Source: a virus
Length of the DNA: 64,000 bases
Virus record (IMG/VR): IMGVR_UViG_3300045974_000166
Span: 124,001 to 188,000 of that record
Direction: 5' to 3' (one strand)
Shown here: piece by piece, positions 3,012 to 44,412 of the stretch
Layout: each line of letters begins with the position of its first letter
Numbering within the stretch: position 1 is the first letter of the stretch
The notes under the pieces: model-generated
Database searches by the model: none
What the model was told of the DNA's origin: nothing
Seen by the model: only the letters and a program-made list of their open reading frames with translations
Program-made: the position numbers and the translations under genes

Positions 3012-5204
3012 ATGTTCCAGAATACTAAATGTAATATGTTTAAAAAGACTTTGGTCAGTTTATCAAGTATTTTTTTCTTAAACAGCTTTTCACATGCACA
3101 GACAGATACGAACCAGCCCAAATCATTGGTGCTGCAACAATCTTCAGTGCCAAGCGACTGGGTTCACTCCTCAGAACTAGTGCCGTTGAATGCACTTCAC
3201 TCGGATCTCAAATATGAAATTGCTTCCGCGGCTTCATCAACAATTGTTCCAAGTAAGTACATAACCCGAGTCTCAACATTTCATGATCGCAATGCTTTGT
3301 ATGTTGAAATCAACGCGATAGACCCAACCCCAGATAAGATCATTGCTGCTAACGGAGTTCATGACACCGTAACAGTGGGTGATAAGGTTCAGTTATTTGT
3401 AGACCCATTGGGTACTGGTCGTAGGGCATATGTCTTTACTGTATCTGCCTCTGGTTCAACCGGTGATCAGATCATTAGTTCTGTTGGGGAAGCTTCCCCA
3501 AATTGGAATGGTCAATGGGAATCTAGTACAAAACGTACTAGTACCGGATATACGGTAAGGTATCGCATACCATTTCAAACAATAGAAGTTCAAGAAAACT
3601 CAAAAGACATAGCAATAAATGTTAATCGTTCCATAGGATATGGCCAGCGTGAAGTATTAAGTTGGGCTCCAGTTGACGTCCATCTTTCATGTGAGGTGTG
3701 TCAGTTTGAACATTTTAAACTTGATGATTTACAAGCACAAGAATCACAATTGCTATTGTCACCATATATTGTATCACGATATATTCAACAAACTGGTAAA
3801 AGTACTACTAAAGAAACTTACACAGGTTTAGATATGCAATGGTCAAAAAATGGGAACAAAATCATTGGAACAATTCGACCAGACTATTTGCAACTAGATT
3901 TTGATTCATTTCAAATTACAACCAATAGAAGATATGCAATTAATCTCACGGAAAATAGACCATTTTTCACACAAGACAGAGGCCCTTTTAACACAGAGAT
4001 GAGTTTAATTTATACCCGAGCAATTACTGATTTAGATTGGGGCGTTCAATATGTCGGCCGACAAGCTGATCAGACTTTTGGAGTCATAGTTGCCAAAGAC
4101 CGCTATACAAATATTGTTCGGCCGGAGATACTTGGGTCAAGTCTATCTTCACAAGAAAGTGGATCCACCAATGCTATCGTAAGTTATGGACTTCAACTGA
4201 ACGACAAACTAAGACTTGGGACATTGGCAACAGTGCGTTTTGGTGATAATTATCAAAACACTATGATATCTGGTTCACTCGGTTGGAGTCCTTCGGCCGA
4301 AAATTCATTCACAGTTGTAACAGCTTATTCGCAGACCCGCGATCCAATACAGGCAACTGTTCCTAATGGTAGCGCATTTTATTTGAATCATACTTATTCT
4401 GATAAGACTCTTTTTTCACAGTCTAGCATTACATACGTCGCCGAAAATTTCAGAGCTGACATGGGATATATGAATTTGGCTGGGGGAACCAGATTTTCAA
4501 ATTACGAAAGTTTGAACTTCGACCAGTCAGAAAATGACTTTATTACATCATATGGTGGTTATGTCACTTTTGATACGACTATAGATGCAGACAATAATCT
4601 AGTGAGTTATGACCAGACTTTGTCTGCATCTATAACTATGAAATCCCAGTATATATTTTCTATCAGTAAGCAAAAGAACATGTATATATTCGACACAAAG
4701 CGATTTTTGTCCGACCAAACAACTATCAATTTTGATGCAACACCATTTAACTGCTTCACTATTATGTCATCTTTCGGCCGTGGCACAACAACCGATTTCA
4801 ATGTTCTAGAACAGCGTCCACTTAGTAGTATGATGTTTACAACGGTGTGGCAAATTACATCACAGTGGAAAACTTCTACATCTATTATAAATGAAAAAGA
4901 CGCCGATTCAAACGATCTTGGATATAAAGCTAGGGTTGTCAATGTCAAACTGTCATATTCTCCCTCAAAATTCCACACTCTGAAATTACAATTGGCGCAG
5001 TCTAGTACTTTACAGAAAGATCTATTTGATGGGATTCTGTATGAACAACATTCAGTAAGTCAAAAAGAACAAATTGTTTACACATGGAATCCGCAAATAG
5101 GCACAACTTTAGTGCTTGGTTGGCAAGGTAATAGAACCAAGACTGATGGTAAGATTTCGACTCAAACAACTGCAGTCTTTGGTAAGTTTGTAAAAGTATT
5201 TTAA
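3012..5204 (+). CDS. Large secreted outer-membrane protein (DUF5916-like: CBM9-like domain plus beta-barrel)
   Basis: 730 aa from ATG 3012, only 5 nt after the -10 box (leaderless); ATG 3036 is an alternative. A signal peptide ends near SFSHA. Residues ~35-240 resemble the carbohydrate-binding-9-like domain that precedes the barrel in DUF5916 proteins. The rest alternates aromatic and polar residues and ends in Phe (KVF), like an outer-membrane barrel. It follows the exporter with its own promoter and may be the outer-membrane partner or receptor of the peptide. The family call rests on overall pattern. Confidence 0.6.
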   Translation: MFQNTKCNMFKKTLVSLSSIFFLNSFSHAQTDTNQPKSLVLQQSSVPSDWVHSSELVPLNALHSDLKYEIASAASSTIVPSKYITRVSTFHDRNALYVEINAIDPTPDKIIAANGVHDTVTVGDKVQLFVDPLGTGRRAYVFTVSASGSTGDQIISSVGEASPNWNGQWESSTKRTSTGYTVRYRIPFQTIEVQENSKDIAINVNRSIGYGQREVLSWAPVDVHLSCEVCQFEHFKLDDLQAQESQLLLSPYIVSRYIQQTGKSTTKETYTGLDMQWSKNGNKIIGTIRPDYLQLDFDSFQITTNRRYAINLTENRPFFTQDRGPFNTEMSLIYTRAITDLDWGVQYVGRQADQTFGVIVAKDRYTNIVRPEILGSSLSSQESGSTNAIVSYGLQLNDKLRLGTLATVRFGDNYQNTMISGSLGWSPSAENSFTVVTAYSQTRDPIQATVPNGSAFYLNHTYSDKTLFSQSSITYVAENFRADMGYMNLAGGTRFSNYESLNFDQSENDFITSYGGYVTFDTTIDADNNLVSYDQTLSASITMKSQYIFSISKQKNMYIFDTKRFLSDQTTINFDATPFNCFTIMSSFGRGTTTDFNVLEQRPLSSMMFTTVWQITSQWKTSTSIINEKDADSNDLGYKARVVNVKLSYSPSKFHTLKLQLAQSSTLQKDLFDGILYEQHSVSQKEQIVYTWNPQIGTTLVLGWQGNRTKTDGKISTQTTAVFGKFVKVF

Positions 5205-24667: not shown

Positions 24668-25446
24668 GAATTTCTTATTGGTCGAATTCAAAGTTTGCCG
24701 CAAAGCTCCGAGAAGTCTTCGGACTTCCTAAGCAACCGACTTCTGCAACATGGGAAGAATGGAAGGAAATAGAAGCCGAAGAAAAGAAAGCATCTCGACT
24801 TGGTATTGCTATTATACACGGTTTTGATAAAATCCAGGGGGCAATCTATGCTGTTCCGGATGCACTTCACTCTGTAGCTTATTTTGCTGGTAATATTAAG
24901 AATCAGTCGAATGTTCTTCGTACTCGTACTAAATTTGGATCTTGGGCTGATTTGTCTAATAGAATTCCAGACGGCTTGATGTTTGCCGTAGTCGACTACT
25001 TTGAAAAAGAATGCTTTTGGATGAACTGTGCCTTTACTTCTAAAGAAGAAATGCATACACTCGAACCAGAAGTTCAAAAATACATACAACAATCTTACAT
25101 CCACCGAAAATTGTTTGGTGTCAAAGTTTCGGATGAAGTAAGAGCAAAGCATGCTCGAGAATGGATTGATTTCCAGATTAAAGAAGGTAACCCAGAATCA
25201 GCGTCTGGTTACGAAGCACTTTGGGCAGCTTACAAATTCGCCAAGGGTCGGTACCTTACATATGACGCTTGGGAAGAATCTGGCTATAATGCTAGAATGG
25301 ATGAAATTCATCGAGGCATTGGTAATGTGTCCGAAGAGCAAACTGCTCTATTTAGAAAAATTACCGAACTCGAAGAAGCATTTGAGAAGGAAGTAGAAAT
25401 TCATTGTACTTCTATTGTGAAATATCGTCAATTTATGTGGACTTAA
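24664..25446 (+). CDS. Hypothetical protein (260 aa)
   Basis: Helical C-terminal half (EEQTALFRKITELEEAFEKE). No motif recognised; longest unassigned gene of this operon. Confidence 0.7.
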   Translation: MRISYWSNSKFAAKLREVFGLPKQPTSATWEEWKEIEAEEKKASRLGIAIIHGFDKIQGAIYAVPDALHSVAYFAGNIKNQSNVLRTRTKFGSWADLSNRIPDGLMFAVVDYFEKECFWMNCAFTSKEEMHTLEPEVQKYIQQSYIHRKLFGVKVSDEVRAKHAREWIDFQIKEGNPESASGYEALWAAYKFAKGRYLTYDAWEESGYNARMDEIHRGIGNVSEEQTALFRKITELEEAFEKEVEIHCTSIVKYRQFMWT

Positions 25447-25447
25447 T

Positions 25448-25705
25448 ATGACAAACAATTTATATGATGGTTTAGAACTCAAAGAAATCAAACCGCTTGA
25501 GTATCAGTGGCCCAAAGATGGAGTTACAGATGGAGTTACTTATACTATTGCTAAAGAACTAGAACCGATCGGTTATTGGGTCTTGGGCTCTGGTGGATAT
25601 TCTACTATAAATTTTGCTATGTACGTTAAACCAACTGCGGATCAGATTTACAACACAGAGATGCTGCTTGGTTGGAAATGGAAAGATGCAATTAAGTACA
25701 AATAA
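25448..25705 (+). CDS. Hypothetical protein (85 aa)
   Basis: Two bp after the previous stop. No family recognised. Confidence 0.65.
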   Translation: MTNNLYDGLELKEIKPLEYQWPKDGVTDGVTYTIAKELEPIGYWVLGSGGYSTINFAMYVKPTADQIYNTEMLLGWKWKDAIKYK

Positions 25706-26149: not shown

Positions 26150-26334
26150 TGTACCGAGAATATTTCCTGGCATTTCTGGATTCAAATCCAAGGAAAAATG
26201 AAATGTGGCAAGCACCACAACTAGATTGGTCTACGTGGCTTGGAAGTCCGATGTGGTATGATGGTGGATTCTATGTGAACCGAACACTGGAAGAACGAAA
26301 TGAACATGACAGAAGAACTCAAAGGAGAAGTTAG
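26146..26334 (+). CDS. Hypothetical protein (62 aa)
   Basis: ATGA overlap; Trp-rich centre, basic tail (ERRNEHDR-like, ends RRS). No family recognised. Confidence 0.6.
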   Translation: MMYREYFLAFLDSNPRKNEMWQAPQLDWSTWLGSPMWYDGGFYVNRTLEERNEHDRRTQRRS

Positions 26335-26335
26335 T

Positions 26336-26476
26336 ATGATTGCAACAGCAGTAACAATTGGTTTGGTAATGGTAGGATGGATGGCAATTTGGGCATTCGT
26401 TCACGGCGCTTCAGATGGATGCGGTGGGAACTGCAACCAAGGTCAAGATAAGTGTGATTGCAAAAAGTTTGAATAA
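26336..26476 (+). CDS. Small membrane protein with Cys-rich tail (46 aa)
   Basis: Strong SD AAAGGAG; an in-frame ATG at 26300 would add 12 residues. One membrane span (TIGLVMVGWMAIWAFV) then CGGNCNQGQDKCDCKK. Confidence 0.6.
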   Translation: MIATAVTIGLVMVGWMAIWAFVHGASDGCGGNCNQGQDKCDCKKFE

Positions 26477-26524
26477 ATTTTCGTTTTTCTGAGAAAAAGT
26501 TGGCTAACCACCATAAATAAGTAC

Positions 26525-26632
26525 ATGAAACAAAACCTCTTATCCTTGTCGATGCATCTCTCAAACGCTGTCTATAATAGCGGTTGCGCCATTGCACGCG
26601 GACAATTCACACCAGAATGGGATCAAACATAG
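26525..26632 (+). CDS. Possible 35-aa peptide before terminator
   Basis: Short frame (MKQNLLSLSMHLSNAVYN...) without SD, in the 220-bp tail between the last clear gene and a terminator. Low confidence; the stretch may simply be 3' untranslated RNA. Confidence 0.25.
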   Translation: MKQNLLSLSMHLSNAVYNSGCAIARGQFTPEWDQT

Positions 26633-26660
26633 AGGGACTTTGAAATTCTACGGAACACCA

Positions 26661-26686
26661 AAGGCCCTTGTAAGAAGGGCCTTTTT
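26661..26686 (+). terminator. Rho-independent terminator of the early operon
   Basis: AAGGCCC, 9-nt loop, GGGCCTT, then TTT. Ends the protein-coding block before the RNA region. Confidence 0.88.
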
Positions 26687-26703
26687 GATTGGTTCTAAAA
26701 TAA

Positions 26704-26732
26704 TTTACACATATTCCGGGATGGTTTATAAT
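26704..26732 (+). promoter_or_regulatory. Promoter L1 of the RNA region
   Basis: TTTACA 26704-26709, 17 nt, TATAAT 26727-26732. Followed by a hairpin and a boxA-like sequence, not by a gene. Confidence 0.87.
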
Positions 26733-27068: not shown

Positions 27069-27178
27069 TATAGTAGACAAGATTCCTTGCATTGACGACA
27101 TAAAAAGTGTGTCCTCGATCGTGAGATTACAGGTGCTAACAGATAGGGTAAAACGTATCCAAGGCAAGTGTGAGGAGT

Positions 27179-27254
27179 CATTTTGAAGTATCGTAGGTGA
27201 TCCAAACTGCTCCACGAGGTTTGTGGTAGGTGATCTGGACGGTATTTCAAAATG
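27179..27254 (+). ncRNA. Hairpin module M1
   Basis: 13-bp closing helix CATTTTGAAGTAT / GTATTTCAAAATG (with G-U pairs) around a 50-nt core. Closing sequence shared with M2 and M4; followed directly by M2. Confidence 0.6.
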
Positions 27255-27255
27255 A

Positions 27256-27338
27256 CATTTTGAAGTATTTTAGTTTGAACGTACTCCTGGATCTTAATTG
27301 AAAAAGGCACGCCAGTATTCCTAAAGTATTTCAAAATG
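27256..27338 (+). ncRNA. Hairpin module M2
   Basis: Same 13-bp closing helix as M1 around an unrelated 57-nt core. Confidence 0.6.
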
Positions 27339-27414
27339 ATTATCCCAAGACAATAGCGCAACGATAAGATCCGTGCAGACACAATTCTACAATAGCAGCA
27401 CGATATTGGGATGT

Positions 27415-27502
27415 CATTTTAAAACATACTTAGATGCTAGTTCGATTCTAGGCCTGGGTAAGAGTAGCATAATTTGGCAATGCGAACGTATGTTTTAAAA
27501 TG
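27415..27502 (+). ncRNA. Hairpin module M3, tRNA-mimic-like core
   Basis: Perfect 15-bp helix CATTTTAAAACATAC / GTATGTTTTAAAATG. The core has a T-arm-like CTAG-TTCGATT-CTAG, then a D-arm-like GCAT-AATTTGGCA-ATGC: T-arm before D-arm, the reverse of a normal tRNA. Confidence 0.6.
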
Positions 27503-27544
27503 ATTGTCTGATTGTGCATTAGTAGTTTAAGCAGAGGAAGACGT

Positions 27545-27630
27545 CATTTTGAAGTATTTTGTGTAATTCCCGTCTCAACGGTATGCCGTCCCAACAGCTA
27601 ACCGCGTAGGTAACAAAGTATTTCAAAATG
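27545..27630 (+). ncRNA. Hairpin module M4
   Basis: Closing helix identical to M1/M2 (CATTTTGAAGTAT / GTATTTCAAAATG); core contains ACGG-TATG-CCGT. Confidence 0.6.
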
Positions 27631-27637
27631 ATTTTAT

Positions 27638-27731: not shown

Positions 27732-27939
27732 ATTTTATTCCTCGGACTGGAAATACAGTGATGAATCCGTAAGCCGCTCGATAGCCCAAGGGTCACTGTA
27801 TAGTTGTGTTTGGAGTTAATATTACCAAGCACAGTGAAGTTAGATTCTTCATAGGGGAGCCAAATCACGCTTAGAGGTTGGGTGAAACCTCCGAGTACTT
27901 AAATGTACAATCCGCAGTACAGTGAGAAGCCCTGCGTTT

Positions 27940-28003
27940 ATTTTAAAGCACATTGCCTGTGCGGACACAATGAGAAACATAGGTTCAAAGTGTGCTTTAA
28001 AAT
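27940..28003 (+). ncRNA. Hairpin module M5
   Basis: Perfect 13-bp helix ATTTTAAAGCACA / TGTGCTTTAAAAT around a 38-nt core with CATTG/CAATG. Confidence 0.6.
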
Positions 28004-28055
28004 GGAATTAGCAAGAGTAATTAACTTGCTCCATTATCGGGAGTCATGACCCGAT

Positions 28056-28148: not shown

Positions 28149-28258
28149 CATTTTAAAGTATTCTGCAACGGCCGATTGTGGTCAAATAGACGAAGAGCGT
28201 ATAAGGTTGGTACCAACCTAAATCCCAGTAGGTTTATGAAGTAGAATGCTTTAAAATG
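28149..28258 (+). ncRNA. Hairpin module M6
   Basis: 16-bp closing helix (CATTTTAAAGTATTCT / AGAATGCTTTAAAATG, one G-U); core has the palindrome AGGTTGGTACCAACCT. Confidence 0.6.
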
Positions 28259-28380: not shown

Positions 28381-28530
28381 TTTATAGTTGAAGGCATTGC
28401 ACTATCTGAGAAACACATCAGTAGGGTTGCTCCTACACCGGTGTGAAAAGTCGGAATTCGTTCTTCGCAGAGTTCAATAACCGTATTGGGACGAAGGTAA
28501 AGTGTTTTGAACAGTGCCTTCAACTATAAA
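28381..28530 (+). ncRNA. Hairpin module M7
   Basis: 14-16 bp closing helix built on TATAGTTGAAGGCA / TGCCTTCAACTATA around a ~118-nt core. Ten bases before tRNA-Ala. Confidence 0.6.
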
Positions 28531-28868: not shown

Positions 28869-28931
28869 AGGATCAGTTCAGCAAAAACTAAAAACTTTGA
28901 ATCATTCTCAAACTAAAAGTTGATCCTGTTA
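28869..28931 (+). repeat. R element 1 (candidate Y-RNA-like)
   Basis: 7-bp stem AGGATCA/TGATCCT; GTTCAGCA follows the left strand and GTTA the right strand, as in the other R elements. A 5-bp/7-nt arm (TTTGA-ATCATTC-TCAAA) lies inside. Confidence 0.7.
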
Positions 28932-29271: not shown

Positions 29272-29360
29272 ATCATTCCGAAGCATAAAGCAACCGTGGC
29301 AGAGATCGTCACAACTAACCATGGAATAGATGTGTTGCTCCATGTATGCTTCGGAATGAT
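29272..29360 (+). ncRNA. Hairpin module M8
   Basis: Perfect 16-bp helix ATCATTCCGAAGCATA / TATGCTTCGGAATGAT; inner AGCAAC/GTTGCT. Ends seven bases before tRNA-Tyr. Confidence 0.6.
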
Positions 29361-29806: not shown

Positions 29807-29959
29807 TTTGAAGTGTAGATGTTGAGAACACAGGAACTCGAAAGCCCTGTAAGCAGATTTAGCGATCTATGTACCAACTATTACTACGTATCTCTAACCC
29901 ACCGCGGCTAGTATTCATGGGTAAAATGGTTCCGAATGAGGGAGACGGAACACTTCAAA
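29807..29959 (+). ncRNA. Hairpin module M9
   Basis: Perfect 10-bp helix TTTGAAGTGT / ACACTTCAAA around a 133-nt core with GTTCCG/CGGAAC and AGAT/ATCT hairpins. Confidence 0.5.
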
Positions 29960-29968
29960 TTCATTTTT

Positions 29969-30027
29969 AGGTTCCGTTCAGCAAATTCAAAAATTTCACT
30001 TTTAATGAAAAAATAAGGAACCTGTTA
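29969..30027 (+). repeat. R element 2 (candidate Y-RNA-like)
   Basis: 7-bp stem AGGTTCC/GGAACCT with GTTCAGCA after the left and GTTA after the right strand. Inside is TTTCA-CTTTTAA-TGAAA, identical in loop to a Lys(UUU) anticodon arm. Confidence 0.72.
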
Positions 30028-31689: not shown

Positions 31690-32253
31690 ATGAATAGGTA
31701 TCCATTAGTGCTAACACTAGATTCTGCAGGTATTCCGCAGAGATGGTCTACCTGGGAAGAAGGTGTCGTGGCAAAATACAAAGGCGTTATCGCTTGGTCA
31801 CTTGGTGAAGAAACCATCTACCGGGGCGGTAACTCAAGACTTACTGGCGAACAATCAACCGTAGCAGTTCCATCTATTATTGCTATTCGATCTATGGGTC
31901 GTACAAAGAACCGAGCAGTGCCACTTACAAACAAGAATTTGTTTGGGCGTGACCGGAACATTTGTTGTTACTGTGGTACTCATGTGAAAGATCATGACGC
32001 TACACGTGACCATATTGTTCCGTATGCTAAGAAAGGTACGAACGTTTGGATGAATGTTGTTACTGCATGTAAGCCTTGCAATAACTATAAGGATGACAAA
32101 ACTGTAGAACAAGCTGGGCTAGAGATGCTATATGCACCTTATGTCCCAGATCGTGCAGAAGCTTTGATTCTTGCCAACCGTAACATTTTGGCAGATCAAA
32201 TGGAATTCTTATTGGCACATTTGCCTAAGCATTCTCGGGCACGACCACATTAG
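31690..32253 (+). CDS. HNH endonuclease within the tRNA array
   Basis: 187 aa. HNH core: CCYCGTHVKDHDATRDHIVP, then KPCNNYKDDKT; two CxxC pairs and His-Asn. N-terminal ~90 residues (IYRGGNSRLTGEQSTVAVPSII) are shared with a bacterial/phage HNH family. SD AAAGG. The last G of its TAG stop is the first base of tRNA-Ser. Could be a homing or defence nuclease. Confidence 0.85.
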   Translation: MNRYPLVLTLDSAGIPQRWSTWEEGVVAKYKGVIAWSLGEETIYRGGNSRLTGEQSTVAVPSIIAIRSMGRTKNRAVPLTNKNLFGRDRNICCYCGTHVKDHDATRDHIVPYAKKGTNVWMNVVTACKPCNNYKDDKTVEQAGLEMLYAPYVPDRAEALILANRNILADQMEFLLAHLPKHSRARPH

Positions 32254-32347: not shown

Positions 32348-32463
32348 AGGATCAGTTCAGCATTTAATATACCAAGCAGCTTGTTGTGAGTTCGATTCTC
32401 ACCTTCCGAGTAATCGGTTGTAGTTCAACGGTAGAACAGCCGCCAATTAAAGTGATCCTGCTA
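32348..32463 (+). ncRNA. R element 3: Y-RNA-like tRNA mimic (YrlA-type architecture)
   Basis: 7-bp stem AGGATCA/TGATCCT with GTTCAGCA and GCTA flanks. Core in order: GCAGC, T-arm GTGAG-TTCGATT-CTCAC, acceptor-like CTTCCGA-GTAA-TCGGTTG (4 bp plus C-G, capped by a GNRA loop), TA, D-arm GTTC-AACGGTA-GAAC, GCCGC. This is a tRNA cut open in the anticodon and closed at the acceptor, the known layout of the YrlA effector module, with the Ro60-binding stem in the anticodon place. Confidence 0.7.
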
Positions 32464-42394: not shown

Positions 42395-42423
42395 TTTATA
42401 ACCGTTTCTAATGGGTGTATAAT
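42395..42423 (+). promoter_or_regulatory. Promoter of the R-element RNA array
   Basis: TTTATA 42395-42400, 17 nt, TATAAT 42418-42423. Predicted start near 42430 is 3-4 nt before R element 4. Confidence 0.72.
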
Positions 42424-42432
42424 GAAGGTATA

Positions 42433-42553
42433 AGGATCGGTTCTGCAATATTAAAAATTAAAGGACGTTGCTTGATACCCGGACAACAAACTCCGGATTC
42501 AGTAACACACAAGCTCTAGATCTTGTAAAAAATCTATAAAGACGATCCTGTTA
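42433..42553 (+). ncRNA. R element 4: candidate Y-RNA-like RNA
   Basis: AGGATCG/CGATCCT terminal stem, then GTTCTGCA on the left and GTTA on the right. Inner hairpins CCGGA/TCCGG and ACAAG/CTTGT. Its 5' end nearly coincides with the predicted transcription start. Confidence 0.68.
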
Positions 42554-42565
42554 AAATTTGATTAG

Positions 42566-42685
42566 AGGTTGGGTTCAGCAAATACTTAGCGGCTTCGCGG
42601 CCGCACCTAGTAAGATGCCTTCGGGTATCACAGTGAGTTTGGAATGTCTCACTGCAAAAACAAAAAGTACAAAACCAACCTGTTA
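42566..42685 (+). ncRNA. R element 5: candidate Y-RNA-like RNA
   Basis: AGGTTGG/CCAACCT stem with GTTCAGCA and GTTA. Inner hairpins GATGCC-TTCG-GGTATC and CAGTGAG/CTCACTG. Confidence 0.7.
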
Positions 42686-42692
42686 TTTGTAA

Positions 42693-42954
42693 AGGATGAG
42701 TACAGCATTTAAAATACAAGCTAATGTCCGAAGAATGTGCCGGTAGGATGATAGAAATATCAGCTCTGATGATTTAAAATCAGGGCCACAGAAGGAACGG
42801 GATAGGTCGGCAAAGTACCGAATATATTGTCTCTGGTAGAAAAATCACAGAGACTAGGTAACATGAATTGTTGCTAGGGTCGCAGTAACTGAACCAAAAC
42901 ACAGGGGATGCAGGCGACCAGAACACTAAAATACTACGTTACACCATCCTGTTA
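42693..42954 (+). ncRNA. R element 6: candidate Y-RNA-like RNA, long form
   Basis: AGGATG/CATCCT stem with GTACAGCA and GTTA. 262 nt with hairpins CTGAT/ATCAG, TCGG/CCGA, GTCTCTG/CAGAGAC and GGTCGC/GCGACC. A mini stem AGGTC-GATATT-GACCT-GTTA follows at 42959-42978, before the gene's SD. Confidence 0.66.
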
Positions 42955-42993
42955 GTTTAGGTCGATATTGACCTGTTATAGAAAGAGAATATT

Positions 42994-44412
42994 ATGAACG
43001 CATTCGTAAACGCCATTGCTGAACAAATTCAACGTACCGAAAACGGTATGAAGGCTCGTGCATCCACAGCTAACGCCTGTGTTGACCTGTTTTTCGCTAT
43101 CGGTGCAAGCCGTGGCAAGAACATCATCCCTCAATTCACGGCGGCATTCGTAGAGAACTCTGACCTGGCTCTCCGCATCGTTGCGTGGGCTCGTGACGTT
43201 CGTGGTGGTGCGGGTGAACGTGAAATCTTCCGTTCGGTGCTTTCACATCTCGAAACCGCTAATCCAGCGGCCGCTGTGGCTCTTGTTAAGAAGGTGCCTG
43301 AATTGGGCCGCTTCGATGATCTGTTGATCTTCAAGACTAAGCCTCTGAAGGAAACTGCTTACACTATCTTGGGTGACGCTCTGCGCGCTCAAAATGGTCT
43401 GGCGGCAAAGTGGACTCCTCGTAAGGGTGATGTCGCACGTGAAATCCGTGAGTTCTTCGGTATGAGCCCAAAGTTTTACCGCAAGTCTTTGGTGACAATG
43501 TCTACTACTGTTGAGCAACAAATGTGTGCCGGCAAGTGGGATGACATCAACTACTCCCATGTGCCTTCGGTTGCTCATGCACGTTACAAGAAGGCCTTTG
43601 GTCGCCACGGTACAACCTATGCTGAGTACATCACCAAGTTGGTTAAGGGTGATGACCCAACTGTGAAGATCAATGCTTCGGCAATCTTCCCACATGACGT
43701 GCTGAAGGGTCGTATCGACGGCTACGACATGACTTGGAATAAGCAAGAGCTCGATGTGATCGAAGCTCAATGGGCTGCTCTGCCTAACTACATTGGTGAC
43801 GCTTCGGTGTTGCCATTGGTTGACGTGTCTGGCTCGATGACTTGTCCAGCGGGTAATAAGGGTACAACTACTTGTTTGGAAATTGCAGTGTCTCTGGGCC
43901 TGTACTTTGCAGACAAGAACAAGGGTGCCTTTAAGGACTGTATGCTGACTTTCAGCGACAAGCCACAGTTGGTGAAGCTGAAGGGCAACATCAACGAGAA
44001 GATCAACCAAATGGTCGCCGCTGATTGGGGCATGCGTACTAATCTGCACTCGGCATTCAACACAATCTTGGATGCAGCAGTGAAGAACTCTGTGCCATCG
44101 GCAGATATGCCAGGTACTATGGTTATCTTCTCGGATATGCAATTCAATGCTTGTGTGCGTAACGATGACTCTGCCATGGAGATGATTGAACGTAAGTTTG
44201 CGGATGCAGGTTACACTGTGCCTAAGATTGTGTTCTGGAACTTGAACGCTGGTAACAACGTTCCTGTGAAGTTCGACAAGACTGGTGCCGCTCTGGTATC
44301 TGGTTTCAGCCCAGCGGTTGCTTCGGCAATCTTGTCTGGTAATATAGACGACTTCACCCCAGAAGCGATCATGCTGAAGGCTGTGATGCAAACTCGATAC
44401 GATTTGGTATAA
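42994..44412 (+). CDS. Ro60/TROVE-like RNA-binding protein (HEAT-like repeats plus vWA domain)
   Basis: 472 aa. N-terminal helical repeats include ARDVRGGAGEREIFR, LVKKVPELGRFDDLL and a central YKKAFGRHGTTYAEY. The C-terminal von Willebrand A domain has MIDAS motif PLVDVSGSMT and FSDMQF. Ro60/Rsr proteins have this HEAT-ring plus vWA build and bind Y RNAs, which in bacteria are encoded next to the gene. Here three R elements lie directly upstream. A DUF2828-type vWA protein is the alternative label. Confidence 0.72.
   Translation: MNAFVNAIAEQIQRTENGMKARASTANACVDLFFAIGASRGKNIIPQFTAAFVENSDLALRIVAWARDVRGGAGEREIFRSVLSHLETANPAAAVALVKKVPELGRFDDLLIFKTKPLKETAYTILGDALRAQNGLAAKWTPRKGDVAREIREFFGMSPKFYRKSLVTMSTTVEQQMCAGKWDDINYSHVPSVAHARYKKAFGRHGTTYAEYITKLVKGDDPTVKINASAIFPHDVLKGRIDGYDMTWNKQELDVIEAQWAALPNYIGDASVLPLVDVSGSMTCPAGNKGTTTCLEIAVSLGLYFADKNKGAFKDCMLTFSDKPQLVKLKGNINEKINQMVAADWGMRTNLHSAFNTILDAAVKNSVPSADMPGTMVIFSDMQFNACVRNDDSAMEMIERKFADAGYTVPKIVFWNLNAGNNVPVKFDKTGAALVSGFSPAVASAILSGNIDDFTPEAIMLKAVMQTRYDLV

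Follow-up and report, generated by a model that had tools for sequence, protein, structure and literature searches.

A DUF2828-type Ro60-like protein of a virus and the stem-closed small RNAs that probably form its own RNA family

The locus

The locus described here lies in a 64,000-nt window, i.e. the whole stretch of DNA that was analysed, taken from a virus record of 192 kb (IMG/VR record IMGVR_UViG_3300045974_000166, positions 124,001 to 188,000). It contains the gene of a Ro60-like protein and, in tandem before it at 42434-42953, three structured RNAs, R4-R6, that occupy most of 42434-42993. We suggest that the locus encodes a DUF2828-type Ro60-like ribonucleoprotein (RNP) with an RNA family of its own, and we put the probability of this reading at roughly 0.8. 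The window holds six complete R elements, all on the + strand; R1-R3 sit within an array of more than 20 tRNA genes, 10-14 kb from the Ro-like gene. The seventh element counted by the initial annotation is degenerate; a relative locus (L002) has a full 75-nt element at its position.

28870-28930, + strand: R1, short R element (61 nt) in the tRNA array
29970-30026, + strand: R2, short R element (57 nt) in the tRNA array; RF01414 36.6 bits over the full model
32349-32462, + strand: R3, body a permuted tRNA (T-arm, closed acceptor, D-arm); RF02553 (YrlA) 31.3 bits, full model
42418-42423, + strand: TATAAT -10 box of the unit of R4-R6 and the Ro-like gene, a consensus match; the -35 box TTTATA at 42395 is weak
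42434-42552, + strand: R4 (119 nt), GGATCG-GTTCTGCAA ... CGATCC-TGTT; same position conserved in relative locus L001
42567-42684, + strand: R5 (118 nt), GGTTGG-GTTCAGCAA ... CCAACC-TGTT, with a T-arm-like hairpin and a CAAAAAGTA tract
42694-42953, + strand: R6 (260 nt), GGATG(A)-GTACAGCA ... (C)CATCC-TGTT, with a multi-helix body
42960-42978, + strand: degenerate fourth upstream element, GGTC-GATATT-GACC-TGTTA, directly 5' of the ribosome-binding site
42994-44412, + strand: Ro60-like protein, DUF2828 and DUF7788/vWA, 472 residues, from profile matches, predicted fold and MIDAS

The first RNA had been placed almost at a predicted transcription start. The -10 box ends 11 nt 5' of R4, but the promoter scan gave 7 sites against 3.9 expected (standard deviation 2.0), which is no clear excess over chance. 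No terminator was found downstream of the Ro-like gene in a scan of the locus.

The Ro-like protein

The initial annotation described a Ro60/TROVE-like protein with helical repeats and a von Willebrand A (vWA) domain with an intact metal-ion-dependent adhesion site (MIDAS). The protein matches DUF2828 (E 1.7e-28, Pfam scan), DUF7788, i.e. the vWA domain (E 8.5e-46), and phrog_850 "RNA-binding protein" (E 1.6e-137). The residues D277, S279, S281, T349 and D381 are unchanged across 17 divergent relatives, so the MIDAS is intact. An AlphaFold model was built from 20 relatives, and its top five PDB matches in Foldseek are all Ro60/TROVE structures (E 4e-8 to 1e-5): Rsr from D. radiodurans (2NVO, the best match, E 4e-8), a TROVE domain (9KOP), two chains of the Ro60 of Thermus phage phiLo (9L5Y) and human Ro60 (9NEN). 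On this moderate model the Ro60 fold, a helical-repeat ring plus a vWA domain, is thus recovered. The initial annotation had named a structure prediction lacking a TROVE-like fold as refuting, and this outcome did not occur. The four best PDB sequence matches of a profile of the 17 relatives are Ro60/TROVE as well, with weak scores (E 0.02-0.04). The domain architecture and the fold of the earlier description are borne out, but its family name is not: profile searches return DUF2828 and not TROVE. Judged from the predicted model, the protein appears to be Ro60-like by fold and to belong to a DUF2828/DUF7788 branch of its own rather than to Pfam TROVE.

The R RNAs share a terminal-stem rule

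All R elements follow one rule: a 6-bp terminal stem with a 5' G, one nucleotide, the box U(A/U)CAGCA(A), a variable body, the closing strand and UGU. The stem of R6 has five pairs and an A-C mismatch, and R3 ends in CUGC instead of CUGU. Searched with a strict regular expression of the rule, 3.2 Mb of related loci yield 492 elements, compared with 5 in shuffled and 2 in reversed or complemented sequence; 411 of them are unique, with 53 different 5' stem 6-mers. Features outside the search rule are also kept, namely the A after CAGCA and the A before the first G (388/410 each) and the second U of the tail (350/410). When the motif was detected first and the stem tested afterwards, full 6-bp stems were found in 75 of 211 cases, against 10.9 by shuffling. 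Stem pairing reaches 100% across the 21 sequences of the R5 class, where the stem has a covariation of 0.414 compared with 0.088 after shuffling, and in the R6 class (19 relatives) compensatory changes occur at 22 of 33 predicted pairs. The claim that three structured RNAs with a common terminal-stem rule precede the gene therefore holds, and both the rule and the co-location are conserved far beyond this phage. In the window, Rfam at gathering threshold reports tRNAs only, and R4-R6 are covered by no Rfam family.

The bodies are of several types. Short ones (~50-60 nt) are most frequent, and the others are the T-arm-like hairpin of R5, the large multi-helix fold of R6 and tRNA-like bodies, which are mostly permuted (T-arm, closed acceptor, D-arm). 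Two reverse-strand elements, at 4696 of locus L166 and 1459 of L214, have a complete normal-order tRNA body with an anticodon arm, and the R stem takes the place of the acceptor stem. Cronobacter S13 (L087 4896-5138) and Citrobacter Ci1 (L085 ~4940-5125) contain normal-order tRNA-like genes in which the anticodon loop contains a hairpin followed by UUCAGCA or UACAGCA, as if the anticodon arm had been formed by closing the R end module into it. Whether the UGUUA tail might pair with the CAGCA box was also considered; the idea was dropped by reasoning only, as the strands would have to cross in a sterically impossible way once the terminal stem has formed.

The gene and the RNAs are associated in phages

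Homologues of the Ro-like protein are present in 673 phage records. R elements were counted within 1.2 kb of the gene, here and in the cellular loci below. Every one of the 71 close viral relatives in which 400 nt or more precede the gene has them before it; the coding strand carries 178 and the opposite strand 0. A strict scan of 26 divergent Ro-like genes gave 25 elements, compared with none on the opposite strand and 0.4 in shuffled sequence, while 15 tRNA-bearing control loci without DUF2828 gave two elements in 262 kb. Strict elements at divergent loci are for example seen in Listeria LP-048 (three in tandem), Aeromonas LAh_9, Fusobacterium FNU3, Campylobacter NCTC12673, mycobacteriophage Lumos and a Felix O1-like phage. 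The association is also found starting from the RNA: DUF2828 is present on 24 of 29 contigs picked by the RNA pattern only, compared with 6 of 21 picked by their tRNAs (Fisher p 1.6e-4), and under a looser rule one or more R-like elements lie 5' of the gene in all of these six.

RtcB is near the Ro-like gene in Listeria phages, and an RNA ligase lies immediately 5' of it in BF and GAP32.

For Listeria phage CKA15 published data exist. Purified virions contain the homologue CKA15_055 (20 peptides). Within 2 kb upstream of it, three RNAs that lack annotation are made in abundance, and the authors propose that they are Y RNAs (PMC12282133). The R triplet of CKA15 lies in the gap 25,215-25,611 and is probably another of these RNAs than the one at 26,236-26,727. 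The latter region (L098 914-1573) is a highly transcribed non-coding stretch of ~500 nt without R elements.

Bacterial and archaeal relatives

At least 568 relatives of the protein family are found in cellular genome assemblies. Among 74 bacterial and archaeal loci, 47 have elements upstream, 90 in total, and the controls give 0 on the other strand, 0.2 in shuffled sequence and 1 elsewhere in 297 kb. Some of these contigs are possibly phage or prophage; isolates, e.g. Anaerotignum lactatifermentans, and long contigs are included. R-like elements also occur at one Woesearchaeota and one Lokiarchaeota locus, the latter with a permuted-tRNA body. In many Clostridia RtcB directly follows the Ro-like gene.

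The RtcB gene behind the Ro-like gene of A. lactatifermentans (L390 4450-7381) appears interrupted, i.e. a 154-residue RtcB start is followed by a 599-residue open reading frame and a group II intron end. Regulator-like genes matching WYL and, weakly, WCX lie 5' of the R array and the Ro-like gene of this locus (386-2534).

Comparison with Ro60-Y RNA systems

The initial annotation proposed a phage Ro60-Y RNA particle. This interpretation is supported, with corrections. The pairing of gene and RNAs indeed recurs widely, but the R RNAs are not canonical Y RNAs, and only some of their bodies are YrlA-like permuted tRNAs. What is shared with bacterial Ro60/Rsr and its Y RNAs is the Ro60 fold with vWA/MIDAS, small RNAs encoded alongside, a terminal stem with, in some R RNAs, a permuted-tRNA module, and RtcB adjoining the cellular relatives. 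However, the protein here is DUF2828/DUF7788 and not Pfam TROVE, and, unlike bacterial Y RNAs, the R RNAs have a CAGCA box and a UGU tail, exist in many copies and have very different bodies.

R3 comes closest. It has a permuted tRNA module on an end-joining stem in a genome with a Ro60-like gene, and its alignment inside its own R stem spans the whole YrlA model, whereas R4-R6 have no permuted-tRNA module. This layout is that of bacterial Y RNAs, in which a protein-binding stem stands in place of the anticodon arm. No R RNA reaches the YrlA (RF02553) cut-off of 69 bits; the best scores are 31.3 in the window (R3) and 44.7 in GAP32. Matches to only part of the YrlA model (27-81) were discounted as likely cross-matches of neighbouring tRNAs; 9 of 14 control genomes have them too.

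The phage Ro-like proteins of phrog_850 (mycobacteriophage, Felix O1-like and Listeria P100-like) belong to the same family as the protein described here, and the Ro60 of Thermus phage phiLo (9L5Y) has the same fold. In the open literature searched, no shared RNA signature is defined for phage Ro-like proteins, the authors of the CKA15 study only proposing Y RNAs (PMC12282133), and no open-access paper linking DUF2828 to RNAs was found.

Comparison with Dictyostelium Class I RNAs

Class I RNAs are described as unique to dictyostelids and have a short (6-bp) end-joining stem, an invariant 5' G and a CUGU end (PMC7919456). Compared at the sequence level, the R signature appears to be nearly that of these RNAs (RF01414) and to match most of their defining features: the 6-bp stem, the 5' G, the CUGU end, the box (UU)ACAGCAA beside the 5' strand, a variable body and, in the short class, a length of ~55-60. 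The stem, the 5' G and CUGU are found together in R1, R2, R4, R5 and 410 related elements. R2 aligns to the whole RF01414 model with 36.6 bits, below the curated cut-off of 41.5. At E<=0.01, 25 of 50 phage records with DUF2828 match RF01414, compared with 0 of 14 cellular controls and 0 of 15 DUF2828-negative contigs. Among 30 cellular genomes with DUF2828 a match is found in the Woesearchaeota genome only, which indicates that the model is insensitive to the GC-richer cellular forms.

The 11-nt motif of Class I RNAs, CCUUACAGCAA, has nearly invariant U3, C6, C9, A10 and A11. In the 410 elements, where C6, C9 and A10 are fixed by the search, the unconstrained A11 is present in 388 and U3 in 148; the exact motif is present in LAh_9. 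U3 is thus not conserved in the phage elements, which can also be far longer than Class I RNAs. Further, the known amoeba binder is Rnp1A and not a Ro-like protein, and the DUSE promoter is a Class I trait.

Other features of the tRNA array

An HNH endonuclease gene (31690-32253) lies inside the tRNA array directly 5' of R3. The array also contains a second non-coding set, not of the R type, in which each element is closed by a 10-20-bp terminal stem: 27177-27256, 27256-27338, 27413-27504, 27543-27632, 27937-28006, 28149-28258, 28381-28530, 29272-29360 and 29807-29959. Several of them have CATTTTGAAGTATT in common, and the one at 27404-27516 matches the YrlA model with 28.7 bits.

Proposed system and alternative explanations

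We suggest that the R RNAs are physically bound by the Ro-like protein and are processed. In the proposed mechanism, the DUF2828/DUF7788 ring-plus-vWA protein would bind them via the terminal 6-8-bp stem, the CAGCA(A) box and the UGU tail. The bodies would be swappable modules (unstructured, T-arm-like, permuted-tRNA or large structured fold) that may tether or mimic partners such as tRNA-handling enzymes, nucleases and RtcB or RNA ligases. During infection, the function of the RNP would most likely be the surveillance, decay or repair of RNA, especially tRNA. A role in repair is supported by RtcB as an operon partner and by the rsr-yrlBA-rtcBA operon of Salmonella (PMC7790460). Surveillance or repair, rather than a decoy or some other role, is in our judgement slightly short of an even bet.

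Several observations weigh against the proposed RNP. No strict element is nearby at 14 of the 26 divergent phage-side Ro-like loci and at 27 of the 74 cellular loci, though looser R forms are visible at several, and in some Straboviridae and jumbo phages the R RNAs are far from the Ro-like gene. The published CKA15 RNA at 26,236-26,727, the only one of the three located in the text of the paper (PMC12282133), was rejected as the R triplet, as this stretch lies upstream of it. For the protein, a Pfam scan at E <= 0.1 gave only DUF7788, DUF2828 and VWA_2 and no TROVE match, the model is of moderate quality (pLDDT 68.4, pTM 0.56), and its global TM is ~0.4-0.5.

The tRNA-like bodies, permuted or complete, are common, and therefore a decoy role also fits: held by the Ro-like protein, the R RNAs would by competition occupy anticodon nucleases of the host, or other defences directed against tRNA, and so spare the phage tRNAs. 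The location of R elements inside the large tRNA array is consistent with this, as is the proposal by Hughes et al. of YrlA as a competitor for an anticodon nuclease (PMC7790460). However, numerous R elements (R4, R6 and the short class) are either short and without structure or have large bodies that do not resemble tRNA, and the system is also present in bacterial and archaeal genomes, so we regard decoys as rather unlikely. That the R elements are cis-acting leaders, i.e. attenuators or autoregulatory sites of the Ro-like mRNA and not free RNAs, seems improbable. In most loci they are directly upstream in the same direction, often with a short one right before the start codon, but R1-R3 are far away in the tRNA array, the mycobacteriophage and Felix O1-like elements are downstream of the gene, those of GAP32 and BF are ~200 kb from it, and R elements abut tRNAs with tRNA-like spacers. 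Fragments and inverted repeats do occur in tRNA arrays, and the elements could in principle be degenerate or permuted tRNA genes and spacer hairpins near a Ro-like gene by coincidence. This is hardly credible and already contradicted, as the signature, the covariation and the gene linkage are far above controls in many lineages.

If the Ro60-like RNP exists as proposed, hundreds of phage and bacterial proteins now called "hypothetical" or "Ro-like" would gain specific RNA partners whose sequence makes them recognisable, a second Ro60-type RNP would be set apart from that of TROVE and Y RNAs, and the origin and function of the dictyostelid Class I RNAs would become directly testable. More tentatively, it can be speculated that DUF2828-type Ro-like proteins and stem RNAs with CAGCA and UGU form one ancient RNP system over phages, bacteria, archaea and eukaryotes. 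The Class I RNAs, whose origin has so far had no explanation, could then be its eukaryotic members, bound by an amoebal DUF2828 protein; we consider this possible, at somewhat less than even odds.
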